Source: Candidatus Saccharimonadota bacterium
GTDB lineage: Bacteria; Patescibacteriota; Saccharimonadia; Saccharimonadales; Saccharimonadaceae
Length of the DNA stretch: 55,649 nucleotides
NCBI GenBank assembly: GCA_017510705.1
Contig: JAFWMO010000006.1
Location: 1-55,649 of the forward strand
Direction: 5' to 3'
The position numbers and the translations under genes are program-made. A model generated the notes under the pieces. The model saw only the letters and a program-made list of their open reading frames with translations, ran no database searches and was not told the DNA's origin. Shown one piece after another: positions 1 to 30,091 of this stretch (position 1 is the first letter of the stretch; each line of letters opens with the position of its first letter).

Positions 1-142
1 GGTAGTAAGCGTTGGAACTATCGTACACAGTACTAGACCAGAAGTACCCGTCGTTGCCTGGGCCGTACAAAGCATCCGAGTACACGACGCCCGCCCGGTT
101 GAAGTATAAAGGAGCAACAAATAGTCCTTGGTCTCTGCCTTG
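1..142 (-). repeat. Expressed copy of the type 1 variable cassette
   Basis: This is the in-frame 3' part of the FISUMP gene. It begins at the same CAAGGCAGAGACCAAGG boundary as four orphan type 1 cassettes. Upstream of the boundary there is no similarity to them. Compared with the orphans, differences concentrate at codons ending in C or T (for example GTC, TAC, TAC, GGC, AAC, GAC at successive variable sites). The shared codons are nearly unchanged. The 3' end of this copy lies outside the window. Confidence 0.85.
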
Positions 143-1624
143 GTCTCCGGTTGATGTGTAATTGTGATTGTAGATGTAGTTGAGGCGGGAGAACTCAGAA
201 GTGGAGCCTGGGGTGGCACCAGACGCGCTCGAGATAGTCGGCAACCTCCAACCCTTCGGACAAATGGAGTTCTTTGGGTTATTGTTGATGTTGCCAGAAG
301 TATTAGACGTGAGATTAGAAGAGTTAGACGAAGCAATCGCCGCCGTCCAGTTGTAGTAGTTGCCCACTGCACCATGAGTACCATTTATCACATATGGAGT
401 CTGCGAGAAGTTTGCGCACCCCGTACCAGATAGATAGTTACAGGTAGAAGAATTATGATAGGCACCATTGGTATACCATAGCCCCACATCAAAGGACTGT
501 GGCGTAGTCTGCGTCTCATTCCACCCGCTAAAATCGCCGTTAGATGAATTTATCGTAGACTGCCCTGGAATCCAAACAATGCTGCTATTACTACACGTGC
601 CATCATCCGTGCTATAGCCATAATAGTATGCTCCAGTATAGCCATCTGGATTATCAGCACACTCATTAAGATCCGTGTTTTGATTGGTGAGTGCCACATA
701 GCCAGTGTCATTAGGGCGCTTGAGGTCTAGATCTAGGTTTTGCGTCATCCAGCAGTGGCCATCTTCTAGCTTGGTCACCCAGTAGAGCTTGTTGTCGCGG
801 GTATCTACCAGTTGCACTTGTGAAGCCTCGCCGATAATCGTAGCCGAGGCACAGATATTGGCCGTCATGCCTTGCATAGTGTAATAAGTCTTGTCGCCTA
901 TCGTCCTAGTTGGTGCACTAGCATTCTCTAAGGCCTTCTTTAGCGAAATCAAGCTAGTAGAAGAATATGGGTGTACCAAAGCATAGCGCACCTTGCCAGT
1001 GTAAGTGCCTGGTGCTTGTGTACCAGATACATATACGCCATAAGTCGCCGTAAGTTGCGAACCGATAGATGTAACCTGCCCCGTGCTAGGATCTTCCGCA
1101 TAAGCCTGCGATCCGCCTTCCGTATCATCACGATATGCCACCATTGTGTATTGGTCTGGCACGGTGTGGAACGAAGTGTACCCGCTAGTAATTTGCGGCG
1201 TATATTGTCCAGTAATCGCCGCTAGCTTAAACGCCCACGCCGAAGTCGCACCGCTAAAAGTAGTACCGGTATTGAAATTATTAGAGCTATCTGCATTGTG
1301 ATGCATATAGGTATCGCCCTCTTCATCATCACCTGCGCCTACTGCATAAATCGCAAAACCATTTTCATCATTACAGTATGCTGTAAGGGTGGTATTACCG
1401 ATATTTTCATCCTTCTGACCGTTGATCAACTCTACTGCATAAGTACCGTTGCCGCTACCAGTAAGAGTACAAGAAGTCTGCACATTGATCTGCACCTGAT
1501 CCACTGCGGAATTATCCGCCGCCACATTTGGTATTACGAGCGCCGAGCCAGCAAAAACTGTCGCAAGGACCAACGAACCCACTAAGAGTTCTCCGCCAGA
1601 CAATCTCATCTTTTTGCTTTTCAT
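1..1624 (-). CDS. FISUMP-family secreted surface protein with hypervariable C-terminal tail (partial, runs off left edge)
   Basis: The frame is open from the start to the window edge (541 codons, no stop seen). A GGAGG stretch at 1629-1633 lies 4 nt before the ATG at 1624; a second ATG directly upstream at 1627 is too close. Residues about 1-37 form a signal peptide (basic start, hydrophobic core, Ala-Ala end). Residues about 40-230 look like a beta-rich adhesin-type region. A FISUMP (Fibrobacter succinogenes major paralogous, C-type-lectin-like) domain follows, with its early Trp-Met-Thr-Gln-Asn-Leu motif and Cys-Pro-Lys-Gly-Trp-Arg-Leu-Pro near residue 454. The last 47 or so codons (positions 1-142) are a variable tail matching orphan cassettes at 25-30 kb. 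Inferred role: exported ligand-binding protein, perhaps for host contact. The family assignment is by motif only. Confidence 0.88.
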   Translation of the reverse strand, partial: MKSKKMRLSGGELLVGSLVLATVFAGSALVIPNVAADNSAVDQVQINVQTSCTLTGSGNGTYAVELINGQKDENIGNTTLTAYCNDENGFAIYAVGAGDDEEGDTYMHHNADSSNNFNTGTTFSGATSAWAFKLAAITGQYTPQITSGYTSFHTVPDQYTMVAYRDDTEGGSQAYAEDPSTGQVTSIGSQLTATYGVYVSGTQAPGTYTGKVRYALVHPYSSTSLISLKKALENASAPTRTIGDKTYYTMQGMTANICASATIIGEASQVQLVDTRDNKLYWVTKLEDGHCWMTQNLDLDLKRPNDTGYVALTNQNTDLNECADNPDGYTGAYYYGYSTDDGTCSNSSIVWIPGQSTINSSNGDFSGWNETQTTPQSFDVGLWYTNGAYHNSSTCNYLSGTGCANFSQTPYVINGTHGAVGNYYNWTAAIASSNSSNLTSNTSGNINNNPKNSICPKGWRLPTISSASGATPGSTSEFSRLNYIYNHNYTSTGDQGRDQGLFVAPLYFNRAGVVYSDALYGPGNDGYFWSSTVYDSSNAYY

Positions 1625-1721
1625 CATACCTCCGCTCTGAAAGCCAACCTAATGTGATTATGTTTTATATATATAATATATCACACATTTATTAAAAACA
1701 AGCATTTTTTCTAAAGTTTTT

Positions 1722-23900: not shown

Positions 23901-25016
23901 ATGAAATATCTTGCCATTCTTGGCCGTCAACCAGAAATTTCTATCGCCGAACTTGAGGCGACTAATTTCTGTACGGATATTGATAGACTAGGTGGCACTC
24001 AAAAACTCGCCGTAAAATTAGAGCAAAAACCTTTGGAGTTTTTGCAATCCTTACCAGATGGCAAAATTACTCTTGGCGTCAGCGATTATAGCAAAAACGC
24101 CTCTCCTCGTGCGGCAAAAACCGAGGCGCTTAAATTAAAGCAGATTTTAGTCCGCCATAGCCGTTCTGTACGCGTAGTAGAGAGCAAAACCGCCGCATTA
24201 TCCACTGCTACTTCCCTTCACAATGGCCTATCTGGCAAAAATCCTCGCAAAATTGAGCTAATCAACACTGACGACGGCTGGTATCGCACAATTGGAGTGC
24301 AAGATATTGATGCTTACACTAGGCGCGACCAAGCCCGCCCAGCCCGTGATGCCAAAGTTGGCATGCTCCCACCCAAACTCGCTCAAATCCTTATTAACCT
24401 TTGCGGTCCACTCCCGGCAGGCTCTCGTATTTTAGACCCATTCTGTGGCACCGGCGTCATCCTCCAGGAGGCACTCCTCATGGGCTACACTGCCTATGGC
24501 ACCGACCTTAGCGAACGTATGATAGAATATACGAGAAGAAACCTAAAATGGTTTTCCGACGAACATCGCGACCAACGGGGAGCTGGCGCAGCGAGCCCCG
24601 TAACGACGGGCGCGAGCGTCGCGCGTTCGGAAGAAAACCATTTTACGGTTTCCACTGGTGACGCTACCAAGTATCAATGGGATCAGCCGATTGATGCTGT
24701 AGCCTGCGAAGGGTATCTCGGCGCCCCTATGTCGCAAATCCCTACAGAAATAAAACTTAAAGAGCAAAAACAAGAATGCTCCTCTATTATTTTGGGATTT
24801 CTCAAGAATTTATTGCCGCAAATCAAGAAAAACACCCCAGTTATTATTGCCGCCCCTGCTTGGCTCAGAGAGAATGGCCAGTATGAACGCCTCAATATTA
24901 TTGACGAAATTGAAAATATGGGGTATAATGTTAAAGATATATCGCGCGAGGGTCTTCTTTATCATCGAGACGATCAAATCGTAGCGAGAGATATAATAAT
25001 ATTAAGGAAGAAATAA
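23901..25016 (+). CDS. Trm11-like RNA guanine-N2 methyltransferase with in-frame palindromic insert
   Basis: A 371-residue THUMP-Rossmann-type methyltransferase, likely acting on tRNA. The SAM loop Asp-Pro-Phe-Cys-Gly-Thr-Gly-Val near residue 181 is clear. The usual Asp-Pro-Pro-Tyr catalytic motif appears as Cys-Glu-Gly-Tyr-Leu-Gly (about residue 271), a variant I believe occurs in this subfamily. Residues about 215-248 are encoded by a GC-rich inverted repeat (see 24545-24644). The start is leaderless: TATAAT exactly 6 nt before the ATG. rpmA begins one base after its stop. Confidence 0.82.
   Translation: MKYLAILGRQPEISIAELEATNFCTDIDRLGGTQKLAVKLEQKPLEFLQSLPDGKITLGVSDYSKNASPRAAKTEALKLKQILVRHSRSVRVVESKTAALSTATSLHNGLSGKNPRKIELINTDDGWYRTIGVQDIDAYTRRDQARPARDAKVGMLPPKLAQILINLCGPLPAGSRILDPFCGTGVILQEALLMGYTAYGTDLSERMIEYTRRNLKWFSDEHRDQRGAGAASPVTTGASVARSEENHFTVSTGDATKYQWDQPIDAVACEGYLGAPMSQIPTEIKLKEQKQECSSIILGFLKNLLPQIKKNTPVIIAAPAWLRENGQYERLNIIDEIENMGYNVKDISREGLLYHRDDQIVARDIIILRKK
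24545..24644. repeat. 100-bp GC-rich palindromic element inside a coding region
   Basis: The ends AAAATGGTTTTC (24545-24556) and GAAAACCATTTT (24633-24644) are perfect inverted repeats. Inside, CGACGAA pairs imperfectly with a TTCGG stretch, CGGGG pairs with CCCCG and GCGCGA pairs with TCGCGC. The element is much richer in GC than the flanks, is in frame and adds about 33 residues between two methyltransferase motifs. Confidence 0.8.
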
Positions 25017-25289: not shown

Positions 25290-25296
25290 ATCAGCA

Positions 25297-25320
25297 AATA
25301 ACCCTTCGGGGTTATTTTTT
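25297..25320 (+). terminator. Terminator of rpmA
   Basis: AATAACCC-TTCG-GGGTTATT followed by T. The first orphan cassette begins 5 nt after it. Confidence 0.88.
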
Positions 25321-25324
25321 ATCC

Positions 25325-25545
25325 CAAGGCAGAGACCAAGGACTATTTATTGCTCCTTTATACTTCAACCGGGCGGGCAACGTGAACTCGGATACTTTGA
25401 GCAACCCAGGCATCAATGGTTACTTCTGGTCTAGTACTGTGGGCAGTAGTTCCAGCGCTTACCTCCTGCTCTTCAGCAGCACAGGTGTCTATCCTGCCAA
25501 CTACGACGGCAGTAGGCACAGCAGTCGGGCCGTCCGTTGCATGGT
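25325..25545 (+). repeat. Orphan FISUMP tail cassette A (type 1)
   Basis: Encodes about 73 codons of a FISUMP C-terminus (Phe-Trp-Ser-Ser-Thr-Val core) homologous to the tail of the 1-1624 gene. It begins at CAAGGCAGAGACCAAGG and ends near the conserved Val-Arg-Cys. There is no start codon, Shine-Dalgarno or promoter; rpmA's terminator is directly upstream. Variable codons read AAC, AAC, AGC, AAC, ATC, AAT, TAC, GGC, AGC, CTC, CTC: all end in C or T. Confidence 0.85.
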
Positions 25546-25556
25546 CCTGGCAGTTC

Positions 25557-25780
25557 TATCCCAATACCGAAGATAAAGGTTTTGTCTATAGCTCACTATT
25601 CTTCGTCCGCGGAGGCCGCATCTACAGTCGCACTTTGTACTACGCAGGTTACAATGGCGGCTATTGTTCTAGCACCGTGCAGTCCGGTACCCTCGCCCGT
25701 AGCTTGGATTTCGGTAGTGGTGGTTCCAATCCGCAGAATAGCAACAACCGGAGCTACGGTTTTTCTCTCCGCTGCCTGGC
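25557..25780 (+). repeat. Orphan FISUMP tail cassette B (type 2)
   Basis: About 75 codons, starting at the shared type 2 boundary CTATCCCAATACCGAAG and ending at the conserved Leu-Arg-Cys. The fixed framework is Val-Arg-Gly-Gly and Ser-Ser-Thr-Val-Gln-Ser, with variable NNY codons between. The framework Trp is Cys here (TGT for TGG). It follows cassette A by 11 nt in another frame. It is in frame with C and D, giving a long open frame (25416-26267) that has no plausible start. Confidence 0.83.
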
Positions 25781-25784
25781 CCTC

Positions 25785-26010
25785 TACCCTGCCACCGGAG
25801 ATAAGGGTTTTACTGCTAGGCCCCTATTCTTTGTGCGTGGAGGAAGGGTGGGTGGCAGCATTTCGCTAGTTTATGCAGGCTACGGTGGTCGTTATTGGTC
25901 TAGCGTCATTAAGTCCAGCATGGATATTTATAATTTAGGAATTAATGGCATAGAGATTTATCTGGAAGATACACATGAAAAGTATCGTGGTTTTTCTCTC
26001 CGCTGCGTAA
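25785..26010 (+). repeat. Orphan FISUMP tail cassette C (type 3, diverged)
   Basis: The same fold and framework (Phe-Val-Arg-Gly-Gly, Tyr-Trp-Ser-Ser, Phe-Ser-Leu-Arg-Cys), but with a different boundary sequence (Tyr-Pro-Ala-Thr-Gly-Asp-Lys-Gly) and many framework changes in its second half. Many variable codons here do not end in C or T, so it looks older or belongs to another family. It is in frame with B and D. Confidence 0.72.
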
Positions 26011-26021
26011 CCTATATTATA

Positions 26022-26240
26022 TATACCGAAGATAAAGGTTTTGTCTATAGCCCACTATTCTTCGTCCGCGGAGGCCGCATCCTCTATCGCACTTTGGACT
26101 ACGCAGGTTACGGTGGCGGCTATTGGTCTAGCACCGTGCAGTCCGATACCGTCGCCCGTCTCTTGAATTTCTCTAGTGGTGGTTCCAATACGCAGTATAA
26201 CTACAACCGGTACCTCGGATTTTTTCTCCGCTGCGTAGCC
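26022..26240 (+). repeat. Orphan FISUMP tail cassette D (type 2)
   Basis: A type 2 cassette nearly identical to B in framework codons but different at most variable codons (for example CTC, TAT, GAC, GGT, GTC, CTC, AAT, TCT). Its 5' boundary is shortened by a TA-rich stretch. The conserved Ser of the last motif is Phe here. Confidence 0.83.
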
Positions 26241-26253
26241 AGCAATAGATTTT

Positions 26254-26469
26254 GCCACCGGAGATAATGGTTTTACTGCTAGGCCCCTATTCTTTGTGCG
26301 TGGAGGAGATTTTTAAATAATGCTTTGTTTTACGCAGGCTACGACGGGCATTATTAGCCTAACGCTGTCCAGTCTGCCATCGATGCCAGGTTTCTGTATT
26401 CCATCAGTCTTGGCACTGAAGCGCAAGGCAACATCGGTCGATTCTATGGTTTCTCTCTCCGCTGGCTAG
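26254..26469 (+). pseudogene. Broken FISUMP tail cassette E (type 3)
   Basis: Shares the Thr-Gly-Asp boundary and Arg-Pro-Leu-Phe-Phe-Val-Arg-Gly-Gly start with cassette C. A frameshift and stops follow near 26310-26320 and again at the Tyr-Trp-Ser position. The 3' end (Phe-Ser-Leu-Arg-Trp) is intact in another frame. Confidence 0.75.
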
Positions 26470-26479
26470 TTCATATACC

Positions 26480-26699
26480 CAAGGCAGAGACCAAGGACTA
26501 TTTATTGCTCCTTTATACTTCAACCGGGCGGGCAACGTGAGCTCGGATGCTTTGGATAACCCAGGCCGCAGCGGGAGCTTCTGGTCTAGTACTGTGGGCA
26601 GTAGCTCCAGCGCTTACTTCCTGTACTTCAGCAGCACCTACGTCTATCCTGCCAACTACAATTTCAATAGGTACTACGGAAGGTCCGTCCGCTGGCTAG
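26480..26699 (+). repeat. Orphan FISUMP tail cassette F (type 1)
   Basis: A type 1 cassette starting at CAAGGCAGAGACCAAGG, 10 nt after cassette E. The framework is identical to A and to the expressed gene. Variable codons read AAC, AGC, GAT, AAC, CGC, AGC, AGC, GGC, AGC, TTC, TAC. The final Cys is Trp (TGG). No start signals. Confidence 0.85.
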
Positions 26700-26749
26700 A
26701 TCCAGCTTGGATCAGTAGATGTTAAGATGGAAGAAAGCCTAAGACAATT

Positions 26750-26975
26750 GGCTACGCAGCGGAGAGAAAATCCGTTGTGCCGGTTGTTGCTATACTGCGT
26801 AGAGAAACTACCACTACCGAAATACAAGTCACGGGCGCTGGTATCGGACTGCACGGTACTAGACCAATAGTAGCCACCGTAACCTGCGTAGTTCAAAGTG
26901 CTACCGTTGATGCGGCCTCCGCGGACGAAGAATAGTGGGCTATAGACAAAACCTTTATCTTCGGTATTGGGATAG
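26750..26975 (-). repeat. Orphan FISUMP tail cassette G (type 2, inverted)
   Basis: A type 2 cassette on the minus strand, back to back with type 1 cassette H. The 16-nt spacer between them (starting GCTGTTTT) matches the spacer of the J/K pair. The framework is conserved, and variable codons such as AAC, GGT, AGC, AAC, GGT, TAC, AGC and GAC all end in C or T. Confidence 0.84.
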
Positions 26976-26991
26976 GCTGTTTTATGTACAC

Positions 26992-27209
26992 CAAGGCAGA
27001 GACCAAGGACTATTTGTTGCTCCTTTATACTTCAACCGGGCGGGCCACGTGCGCTCGGATGCTTTGTACTACCCAGGCAACTACGGGTACTTCTGTTCTA
27101 GTACTGTGTCCAGTAGCTCCGACGCCTACTGCCTACTCTTCAGCAGCACGTACGTCTATCCTGCCTACAACAGCATTAGGCACAACGGAAGGTCCGTCCG
27201 CTGGCTAAC
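26992..27209 (+). repeat. Orphan FISUMP tail cassette H (type 1)
   Basis: A type 1 cassette divergent from G. Variable codons read CAC, CGC, TAC, TAC, AAC, TAC, TAC, TCC, GAC, TGC, CTC. The framework Trp is Cys (TGT) and the final Cys is Trp. It ends 9 nt before the last base of the convergent tyrS gene, so it was placed directly against a gene 3' end. Confidence 0.85.
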
Positions 27210-27217
27210 CCGAACAG

Positions 27218-28453
27218 CTACTTCACCACCGCAAATTTATTTTTACCTTTTTTAATAATCGCAACCTGCGAAATTTCAGTTTCTTCTGTTGCCTTTACGC
27301 CGTTAATAGAAATTGCTCCACCAGCAATAAATTCGCGCGCCTTTTTCTTGGAATCTGCAAGGCCGGTCTCCACCAAAATATCTACTAGCTGTTCGCCGCG
27401 CTTTGCCACTGGCAGATAATGTGCAAATTCGCTTATCTCATCTTCCGAAAAACTTGTAAAATCAGTAGTTTTATCAAAAAGCATATTAGTAAGATTTTCT
27501 ATTGCTTCCGTTTCTTTAGCTCCATGCACTACGAGCGTTACGCCGTGTGCCAAGGCTTTTTGTGCCAACCGTTGCTCTGGCGCCTCAAAATGTTTCTTCA
27601 AAATTTCTTCAATCTCTTCTGGCTCGTACAAAGTATAGATTTTTAGCAAATATTCTACTGCTGTATCTGGTTGGTTCAGCCAAAATTGATAAAAATCAAA
27701 TAGCGAAGTATAATTCCCACTGCCATTATCATTTGCGGCCAACCAAATTGCATTCCCCTCAGACTTGCCAAACTTACGGCCAGTCACTGGGTCTATCACG
27801 AGCGGCGTAGACCATACGTCAGCAGTCGCGTCTTCTAATCTTTTTATTAAATGTATACCAGAGGTACAGTTACCATATTGGTCTGCTCCACAAAGTTGCA
27901 ATTTTATACCATATTCACGGTAAAGATGCAAAAAATCATAACCTTGAATTAATGTATAAGAAAATTCCGCATAACTGATGCCGGAGCCGCCTTCGCCAAT
28001 ACGTTTTTGCACAAATTGCCGATCTAAAAGTTGCGTCATTGAAAACGCTTTGCCAACTTCACGCAAAAAATCAAGATAATTTATCTTTGAAAACCAATCC
28101 AAATTATCCACCATCACGACGTCTTTGGCGCTAACAATTTTTTCAATCTGCTCTTTGATACATTTTTTATTGTGGTTTACTTCGTCTAAAGTCTTTAGAT
28201 CACGCTCGCCATTTTCTTTTGGATCACCAATCTGGCCAGTCGCTCCACCAACCAATAAATATGGCTGATAACCATGGCGCACAAAACAAGCGCACATCAT
28301 AAGCGCAGCAAGATTACCAATCGTAAGAGAATCTGCGCTTGGATCCGCCCCAAAATAAAACTTTTTGGACTCACGATTGTCTAACTCTTCTGGATTTTTT
28401 ATTGTAGTCTCGGCTGTAAAGCCACGGTAAATTAATTCCTCTGATAATTTCAT
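27218..28453 (-). CDS. tyrS: Tyrosyl-tRNA synthetase
   Basis: A 411-residue class I synthetase. The HIGH-type motif reads Thr-Ile-Gly-Asn-Leu after Ala-Asp-Pro-Ser-Ala-Asp-Ser (about residue 40). The KMSKS-type motif reads Lys-Phe-Gly-Lys-Ser (about 230). A C-terminal S4 RNA-binding domain (about 345-411) ends the protein. TAATAT lies 6 nt before the start. It sits between cassette H and rnhA, with cassettes on both flanks of the tyrS-rnhA pair. Confidence 0.95.
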   Translation of the reverse strand: MKLSEELIYRGFTAETTIKNPEELDNRESKKFYFGADPSADSLTIGNLAALMMCACFVRHGYQPYLLVGGATGQIGDPKENGERDLKTLDEVNHNKKCIKEQIEKIVSAKDVVMVDNLDWFSKINYLDFLREVGKAFSMTQLLDRQFVQKRIGEGGSGISYAEFSYTLIQGYDFLHLYREYGIKLQLCGADQYGNCTSGIHLIKRLEDATADVWSTPLVIDPVTGRKFGKSEGNAIWLAANDNGSGNYTSLFDFYQFWLNQPDTAVEYLLKIYTLYEPEEIEEILKKHFEAPEQRLAQKALAHGVTLVVHGAKETEAIENLTNMLFDKTTDFTSFSEDEISEFAHYLPVAKRGEQLVDILVETGLADSKKKAREFIAGGAISINGVKATEETEISQVAIIKKGKNKFAVVK

Positions 28454-28465
28454 AACTTTATATTA

Positions 28466-28903
28466 TCACATTTCTGGCAACTTTTCACCCTTGCGCGCAC
28501 GATTTGCCCACTCGTCTGCCAACTCATTTAATTCTGTGCCCATGTGTCCACGTACCCACACCAAATCCACGTCATTATCGCAATACAATTTATATAGTTC
28601 TTTTACAATATCAAGATTTTTAATCTCACCTTTTGATTTCGTCCAATTGCGTCTTTCCCAGCTTGGCGCCCATTTTGTAAGTACATTAATCCAAAATTCC
28701 GAATCCGAATGAATTTCGCAACTTTCTCCGCCTGCATATTTTATAGCTGCAATTAATGCCTTGCCTTCCATACGAATATTGGTAGTATTTTTGTCACAGC
28801 CCAACGCTACTGGCCTTCCACCTTCGAGAGTTTCTTCTATCACCGCAAAACCACCCGGGCCAGGATTTGGCTCTGCACTTCCATCTGTCCATAGAATTTT
28901 CAT
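28466..28903 (-). CDS. rnhA: Ribonuclease H
   Basis: A 145-residue RNase HI that removes RNA from RNA-DNA hybrids. The catalytic carboxylates are visible: Asp in Trp-Thr-Asp-Gly-Ser, Glu in Met-Glu-Gly-Lys-Ala, Asp in His-Ser-Asp-Ser-Glu and a late Glu/Asp near Leu-Ala-Asp-Glu. The stop is TGA. TATAAT lies exactly 6 nt before the ATG. RNase HI would be relevant to any RNA-primed retro-copying nearby, but it is an ordinary housekeeping gene. Confidence 0.93.
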   Translation of the reverse strand: MKILWTDGSAEPNPGPGGFAVIEETLEGGRPVALGCDKNTTNIRMEGKALIAAIKYAGGESCEIHSDSEFWINVLTKWAPSWERRNWTKSKGEIKNLDIVKELYKLYCDNDVDLVWVRGHMGTELNELADEWANRARKGEKLPEM

Positions 28904-28936
28904 ATATCCATTATAGCATAAGATATTGCACGATAA

Positions 28937-29161
28937 GCTAGGCAGCGGAGAGAAAATCCGTAGTACCGGTTGAGGTTAAGCTGCGTATTGGAACCACCAC
29001 TATCGAAACCCAAGTAACGGGCGTCGGTATCGGACTGCACAGTGCTAGACCAATAGCGGCCATTGTAACCTGCGCCGTACAAAGTGCGACTGCCGATGAG
29101 GCCTCCGCGGACGAAGAATAGTGGGCTATAGACAAAACCTTTATCTTCGGTATTGGGATAG
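28937..29161 (-). repeat. Orphan FISUMP tail cassette I (type 2, inverted)
   Basis: A complete type 2 cassette on the minus strand, ending just upstream of the rnhA promoter. It starts at the CTATCCCAATACCGAAG boundary. Variable codons include CTC, GGC, AGT, CGC, TAC, GGC, AAT, CGC, GAC, TAC, GGT, GAT, CTT and CTC. No start signal precedes it. Confidence 0.85.
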
Positions 29162-29171
29162 TATTGCCATA

Positions 29172-29266
29172 TATAATATATATGTTAAAATAAAATCATA
29201 AGAGCGCACTCTAGGTGCACGCTCATGGGTTGTTTAAATCTAGTCGCTTCTAGCGGCTAGATTTTC
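29172..29266 (+). ncRNA. Possible short structured RNA
   Basis: TATAAT at 29172-29177 is followed by two hairpins. The first is GAGCG...CGCTC (29202-29224). The second is AAATCTAG...CTAGATTT with an inner CGCT/AGCG stem (29236-29264) followed by T-rich sequence. That would give an RNA of about 85 nt. The second hairpin can equally terminate a minus-strand transcript from the small ORF at 29327-29482. Weak evidence. Confidence 0.35.
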
Positions 29267-29326
29267 TTCGGCTTCTTCTCGCAAATGAGAATGTTATGTT
29301 GATACAGACTTTCCATATAGAAAACT

Positions 29327-29482
29327 TTATCGCCATAATGCTCTTCTCCTTTCCAAGCTTCTAATCATGCCTAGAATAGATTGTTTTAATGAAGCTCCAC
29401 ACCCGCACGAACCACACATATCATGCTGTGAATACCAAACCTCACTAAACCCCAAAGCTCCAACCCGCTGATAATCTAGCAT
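29327..29482 (-). CDS. 51-residue Cys-rich small protein (putative)
   Basis: An ATG at 29482 opens 51 codons ending in TAA. The middle reads Met-Cys-Gly-Ser-Cys-Gly-Cys-Gly-Ala, a CxxCxC metal- or cluster-binding pattern, and the end is Arg-rich. A TATATA-like box precedes the ATG by a few bases. A second short frame (ATG on the minus strand at 29337, 28 codons) overlaps its end behind AAAGGAGAAG. No family recognised. The rest of 29267-29633 shows only AT-rich degenerate repeats (ATAACC..AGCATTAT twice). Confidence 0.45.
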   Translation of the reverse strand: MLDYQRVGALGFSEVWYSQHDMCGSCGCGASLKQSILGMIRSLERRRALWR

Positions 29483-29633
29483 AATGTATATACAATTACA
29501 ACCCCTGATTATTCTAAAAGTATGCGTAAGACTTATAACAGAGAAATAATGCTCTGGTTATTTTCTATAGTGCTATGCTTATATTTTATAATGCTACGGT
29601 TATTATAGGCAATAATAATGCTACTTGTTTATA

Positions 29634-29852
29634 GGCTAGGCAGCGGACGGTCCTTCCAATGTACCTATTGTAGCTGTCGGCAGGATTGACGTTTGCGCTA
29701 CTGAAGCTCAGGTAGTAAGCGTAGGAGCTATTGTACACAGTACTAGACCAGAAGTTCCCGTTGTAGCCTGGGTAATTCAAAGCATCCGAGACCACGATGC
29801 CCGCCCGGTTGAAGTATAAAGGAGCAACAAATAGTCCTTGGTCTCTGCCTTG
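29634..29852 (-). repeat. Orphan FISUMP tail cassette J (type 1, inverted)
   Basis: A type 1 cassette on the minus strand, back to back with type 2 cassette K across a 15-nt spacer. Variable codons read ATC, GTC, AAT, TAC, TAC, AAC, AAC, TAC, AAT, TAC, TAC, AGC. It carries the same 5' boundary as the expressed gene. Confidence 0.85.
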
Positions 29853-29867
29853 AGATACAAAACAGCC

Positions 29868-30091
29868 TATCCCAATACCGAAGATAAAGGTTTTGTCTAT
29901 AGCCCACTATTCTTCGTCCGCGGAGGCGCCATCAGCGGCCACACCTTGAGTAATGCAGGTTACCTTGGCCGCTATTGGTCTAGTACTGTGCATTCCGATA
30001 CCTACGCCCGTTACTTGGGTTTCGATAGTGGTGGTTCTTATACGCAGGGTAGCAACGGCCGGGTCTATGGATTTTCTCTCCGCTGGCTAGC
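29868..30091 (+). repeat. Orphan FISUMP tail cassette K (type 2)
   Basis: A type 2 cassette divergent from J. Framework is intact, final Cys is Trp. Variable codons include GCC, AGC, GGC, CAC, AGT, AAT, CTT, CGC, TAC, TAC, GGT, GAT, TAT, GGT, AGC, AAC, GGC and GTC. Its 3' end abuts the stop codon of the convergent uvrD gene (30095), repeating the cassette-at-gene-end pattern of cassette H and tyrS. Confidence 0.85.

Follow-up and report, generated by a model that had tools for sequence, protein, structure and literature searches.

Start-less FISUMP tail cassettes in a Saccharibacteria genome, a possible silent archive of variants made by diversity-generating retroelements

The stretch analysed here (the window) is a contig of 55,649 nt from a Candidatus Saccharimonadota bacterium (GenBank assembly GCA_017510705.1, contig JAFWMO010000006.1; contig C13 of genome G000, a 19-contig draft of 657,694 bp that is 91% complete). 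It contains sharply bounded, headless cassettes encoding FISUMP tails, and these bear the adenine-specific signature of two complete diversity-generating retroelements (DGRs) whose machinery lies just outside the window. With a probability of roughly 60%, the cassettes are a silent archive of DGR-made variants that is reshuffled by recombination through conserved arms and acts as a library for the expressed gene; recall from this library into the expressed gene is the most likely use of the cassettes.

Differences between the cassettes and the template repeats (TRs) of the two DGRs fall mainly on template adenines. In type 1 cassettes 373 of 993 adenine cells differ from TR1, compared with 4.5-8.6% of the other bases, and in type 2 cassettes 504 of 1320 differ from TR2, compared with 5.7-9.1%; about 38% of template adenines are changed, a signature far beyond chance. 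The variable codons, 25 per type with at least four states, are mostly AAY in the template. An earlier note, made from the DNA letters alone, had read the cassettes as DGR-type variable repeats (VRs) with variable codons of the form NNC or NNT, and both points are borne out, the adenine specificity being repeated in a second genome (G134). Over four cassette sets the first adenine of AAY codons is changed in 65% of cases, the second in 43% and other adenines in 13%. Compared with the in vivo spectrum of Bordetella, the first adenine of AAC agrees (T first, then G), whereas the second does not, with G dominating in the cassettes and C in Bordetella.

Each DGR comprises an upstream open reading frame (ORF; a putative accessory gene), a reverse transcriptase (RT), an adenine-rich TR and a full-length FISUMP target, and comparable organisation recurs in other Saccharibacteria. 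RT1 on contig C5 and RT2 on C16 (385 and 404 aa) are 62% identical to each other, match PF00078 over its cut-off and contain IGNLTSQ and YVDDF motifs; a Pfam search of the genome listed one RT, the second being found through ORF reading and protein search. The best PDB match by phmmer is 8ub7 (E 2.8e-25), which we take to be the Bordetella DGR enzyme. The ORF preceding each RT encodes 268-279 aa, with no Pfam match for either and no NCBIfam match for the one tested. TR1 (C5:2320-2492) and TR2 (C16:8088-8277) are AAC-rich and lie inverted downstream of their respective RTs. The RT and the templates with adenine at the variable positions that the earlier note had expected elsewhere in the genome are therefore present for types 1 and 2, but a third type of cassette has no matching TR in the assembly. 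Among the Saccharibacteria loci read, the TR is inverted relative to the target VR in most (L134-L137, L141, L142, L145-L148, L002, and L071) and direct in L140 and L144.

Target gene 1, predicted to be expressed, occupies the start of the window (2..1627, minus strand) and encodes 542 aa to the contig end with a C-terminal FISUMP region; its VR runs off the window into C5. The first bases of the window and of C5 overlap by 65 nt with 0 mismatches, after which C5 carries the putative accessory gene, RT1 and TR1. The second target, on C6, is joined to DGR2 on C16 by a 141-nt contig-end overlap with 1 mismatch, so that each DGR has, next to its RT, a full-length target that carries the VR at the 3′ end. 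This one-base difference (L002:10848-10988, L072:1-141) lies in the expressed type 2 VR and is possibly a population variant. Both targets have a C-terminal FISUMP region that scores under the curated cut-off of TIGR02145; a structure prediction of the target C-terminal region gave a mean predicted local distance difference test score of 42 and was not used. Mismatches between TR and VR at the two loci fall on TR adenines in 17 of 21 and 16 of 21 cases, with values in relatives of, for example, 23/24, 23/23, and 20/20.

The cassettes are 5′-truncated copies of the target genes and not of the TRs: they carry approximately 45-60 nt upstream of the TR homology, a stretch present in the target gene but absent from the surroundings of the TR. 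At the other end, nearly all terminate 0-8 nt past a conserved CCGCTG and lack the 3′ flank common to the TR and the true VR; a TR-like flank survives among the orphan cassettes of this genome solely in C10:36423, C8:38911 and, partially, C5:11274. Homing in Bordetella phage needs a hairpin region downstream of the VR (PMC3240598), to which the lost flank corresponds in position; as potential DGR targets, nearly all orphans have lost this TR-like flank. A hairpin folds in the VR1 flank and hardly in the VR2 flank, with modest z-scores.

In this genome the arms are more conserved than the cores that they surround. Non-adenine divergence is 0.4% in arms and 3.0% in cores for type 1 and 0.8% and 2.6% for type 2, while in seven divergent cassettes it is 1.4% versus 23% and 0.9% versus 24%. 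Donor-type copies that lack a start and whose variable core is enclosed by conserved arms, as in the msp2 and vls systems, are therefore found here. Cassettes of the third type have near-identical arms and unrelated cores, and the 3′ part of their parent gene lies at C2:1-400; no TR for the cassettes or for this parent was found in the assembly. In cassette C9:483 an arm of the third type is attached to a core of the TR2 type, and together with the unrelated cores this indicates that cores have evidently been exchanged between arms.

Segmental mosaics, a further feature of msp2 and vls donors, are also found. Type 2 cassettes D and C4:11399 have the last 14 of 25 variable codons in common and the earlier ones mostly not, and further pairs agree at 13 codons (C11:45730/C16:1) and 11 codons (C5:11507/C9:26148), against longest runs in 1000 shuffles of 10 for type 2 and 8 for type 1. 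C4:12530 and C9:25476 share their first eight variable codons, a run equal to the type 1 maximum. A pair in G134 shares 26 codons, compared with a longest run of 13 in 500 shuffles. Private changes in recent cassettes show no significant departure from neutrality in most sets (synonymous to nonsynonymous, 6:12 for type 2, 25:42 in G134, and 10:20 in genome G161), whereas divergent cores are strongly biased towards synonymous change (10:2 for type 1, 14:5 for type 2, and 33:23 in G134; p 2e-4 to 1e-6), which indicates that they diverged while in use as protein.

Within the window, repeat finding and BLAST identified 11 cassettes of about 225 nt each, none with a gene start. The earlier note had placed and bounded them correctly and had described them as start-less and scattered among housekeeping genes, as is found, but counted ten and named two types; there are four of type 1, five of type 2 and two (C and E) of the third type. 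Cassettes A to H sit in an intergenic gap of approximately 1.9 kb between rpmA and tyrS. A (type 1, 25323..25546, plus strand) begins directly 3′ of a terminator-like hairpin with a T tract (25296..25321, plus strand) following rpmA, where relatives keep the gene order, and is succeeded on the same strand by B (type 2, 25556..25781), C (25786..26012), with a conserved arm and divergent core, D (type 2, 26020..26240), E (26247..26472), which is degenerate with a small deletion and a stop codon, and F (type 1, 26478..26703). G (type 2, 26750..26984, minus strand) stands head-to-head with H (type 1, 26989..27207, plus strand), which ends about 10 nt short of the tyrS stop codon. The remaining three occupy a gap of approximately 1.2 kb between rnhA and uvrD: I (type 2, 28937..29161, minus strand) lies directly upstream of rnhA, and J (type 1, 29636..29855, minus strand) is head-to-head with K (type 2, 29857..30091, plus strand), which adjoins the 3′ end of uvrD. 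In syntenic relatives these gaps measure only 33-70 nt and approximately 20-45 nt, respectively; as the gene order is the same, these are empty sites and the cassettes were added. Across the genome about 50 tails are found on C2, C4, C5, C8-C11, C13, and C16. They occur on either strand, alone or in clusters and in some cases at the end of a contig, with recurrent head-to-head and tail-to-head junctions.

Short-frame tail arrays with their own arms occur in five other genomes of the genus (G134, G178, G248, G161, and G197), of which G161, G178, G197, and G248 were chosen because their tails were numerous or their frames short; this hand-picked set therefore gives no estimate of prevalence. G134 contains a TR of its own (C2:66873) together with 49 further tails, and in 35 recent copies 42% of adenines and 5-8.5% of other bases differ from this TR. 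Four copies keep a shared 3′ flank, three of which have 0/136 non-adenine differences, while the remaining recent copies have 1-21. The G134 TR (L171, C2:66873) and its sole detected RT (L143, C8:106507) are on different contigs; this RT would therefore act in trans. For G248, the count of non-adenine differences is 0 in one flank-keeping copy and in a full-length target truncated by the contig end, and at least 3 in the others. G161 breaks this split: its flank-keeping copy differs at 2/145 non-adenine sites, and the flank-less orphan C41:7482, a recent copy, at 0/145 with 26/56 adenines changed. An exact search for the type 2/third-type arm in 173 other genomes of the genus found no match, leaving no orthologous cassettes for comparison, and scans of IMG/VR with the type 1 and type 2 arms likewise found no match and offer no strain-level comparison.

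G178 has 106 tail matches, mostly short frames among the matches listed. A second family in this genome (L193-L200, L230, L231) has one exact 25-nt arm before differing cores of non-adenine type, 14 times in the loci read, and these silent cassettes do not look DGR-made. G187, G188, and G189 (loci L134-L136), with genomes of approximately 0.8 Mb, each have 37-44 FISUMP tail matches, most of them in frames that are open over their full length, and these make up a large family of surface-type genes.

Building on the observed DGRs, cassette origin, arms, mosaics and empty sites, a silent archive may arise as follows. Through mutagenic reverse transcription directed at adenines, the two DGRs would diversify the FISUMP tails of two surface-type proteins that are expressed. 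Tails of this origin have been copied to intergenic sites, taking along 45-60 nt of the target sequence that precedes them but in most cases not the 3′ flank. Once archived, cassettes would stay silent, as their sequence suggests, drift and swap segments, their arms being kept alike by what is presumably homologous recombination. The same process through the arms may return an old or mosaic variant to the expressed gene, with the cassettes as donors, giving a division of labour with writing done by the DGR, storage and shuffling by the archive, and recall by recombination. The complete two-tier system, with retroelements continually writing random tails, the cell keeping tens of these in its archive, and recombination via the arms recalling or recombining them into expressed surface proteins, is proposed tentatively, at somewhat less than even odds.

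Several observations weigh against an archive of this kind. Nothing accounts for the arrival of cassettes at new sites: visual inspection of the two window loci revealed no target-site duplications, and recombinases were not searched for. The expressed VRs, in a single snapshot, share no block with any orphan above the shuffled maximum, and recent type 1 cassettes have a mild synonymous excess (10:8, p 0.02). In G134, one flank-keeping copy (C8:54838) has 15/136 non-adenine differences, and arms of recent copies are not significantly more conserved than cores (5.3% versus 6.8%, p 0.1). The genome is also a draft whose contigs often end inside cassettes.

Foremost among the alternatives, and unlikely, is that the cassettes are junk that arose by ectopic duplication of the ends of target genes and is decaying neutrally. 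Their intergenic location without a gene start would fit, as would the near-neutral private changes of most recent sets and the stops and indels in some copies (cassette E; C10:83759). However, about 50 copies in a 658-kb genome, and the 106 tail matches of G178, are difficult to reconcile with junk, as are segments shared between copies and arms more conserved than cores; cores with 18-40% non-adenine divergence even retain near-identical arms and a synonymous bias.

Next in probability, and also improbable, is the main mechanistic rival, in which the orphans are additional acceptors rewritten in place by TR cDNA, homology to the TR sufficing for integration. Orphan cores do bear the TR adenine pattern, and in E. 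coli retrohoming is reported to depend on replication direction (PMC12875486), so that homology at a replication fork might suffice. Three orphans of this genome retain all or part of the 3′ flank, flank-less orphans in G161 can match the TR at every non-adenine site, and a pair that shares its 5′ half only (C4:12530/C9:25476) is what truncated cDNA could leave. The half common to D and C4:11399 is, however, the 3′ one, the wrong half for truncated cDNA, and complete agreement with the TR at non-adenine sites is limited, in G134 and G248, to copies whose 3′ flank is intact or cut off by a contig end. Rewriting would moreover reset cores and not arms, the reverse of what is found in this genome, and the flank corresponding to the region needed in Bordetella is gone from nearly all orphans. 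The earlier note had left a choice between a silent archive and multiple acceptors; flank loss and arm conservation disfavour the acceptors, and the archive fits better.

That the cassettes form an independent mobile element, for example an array of integron-like gene cassettes, is very unlikely. Both orientations, the recurrent junctions and the empty sites in relatives could be so explained, but the ends of the cassettes vary slightly from copy to copy, the 5′ part is longer in two orphans (C16:1, C5:11727), the type 2/third-type arm is absent from the 173 genomes searched, and no site duplication was noticed at the two window loci; no search for a recombinase or integrase was made. An assembly or binning artefact, to which contigs ending inside cassettes with 64-141-nt overlaps might point, deserves scarcely any weight given that the 11 window cassettes lie in the interior of a 55-kb contig, among genes whose order is conserved, and that similar arrays occur in five other genomes.

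The two DGRs resemble those of the Bordetella BPP-1 type and of the Patescibacteria clade (PMC8144416) in their RT, putative accessory gene, adenine-rich TR and adenine-specific VR at the C-terminal end of the target, but differ in that most VR copies are start-less and scattered and the TR is usually inverted beyond the RT. In Treponema denticola, one TR serves several remote VRs, some in "suspicious" truncated genes (PMC4891356); there the targets number two to seven, whereas here there are tens of start-less tails with shared arms. The archive is likened to the functional pseudogenes of Anaplasma msp2/p44 (PMC4534519), although the cores here would be written by a retroelement, and the conversion into an expression site known for msp2/p44 is one that this genome may share. 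The silent cassettes of Borrelia vlsE are alike in their conserved ends and segmental mosaics (PMC4534519), but form one contiguous plasmid array with no retroelement described, unlike the cassettes here, which are dispersed along the chromosome on both strands.

The usual picture of a DGR is of a system without memory, in which every homing event overwrites the previous variant. A silent archive, if true, would endow DGRs with memory and let variants be reused in combination, so that a genome of 0.7 Mb would hold a repertoire both written and stored, and raises the question of why an ultra-small genome spends about 50 cassettes of approximately 225 nt on stored variants. A literature search, with most subscription journals outside its scope, found no precedent for a DGR with silent cassettes or gene conversion, or for FISUMP in Saccharibacteria; the union of retroelement and silent archive would combine two already known sources of diversity in a new way. 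DGR surveys that demand a plausible gene for each VR, as did a pipeline that counted VRs of secondary targets only with such a gene (PMC8144416), would miss an archive of this kind.

Elsewhere in the window, a GC-rich stretch at 24539-24650, within the gene at 23901-25016, is flanked by the two halves of a 26-nt inverted repeat, which are 81% complementary and separated by 60 nt, and resembles a small hairpin insertion inside the coding frame.

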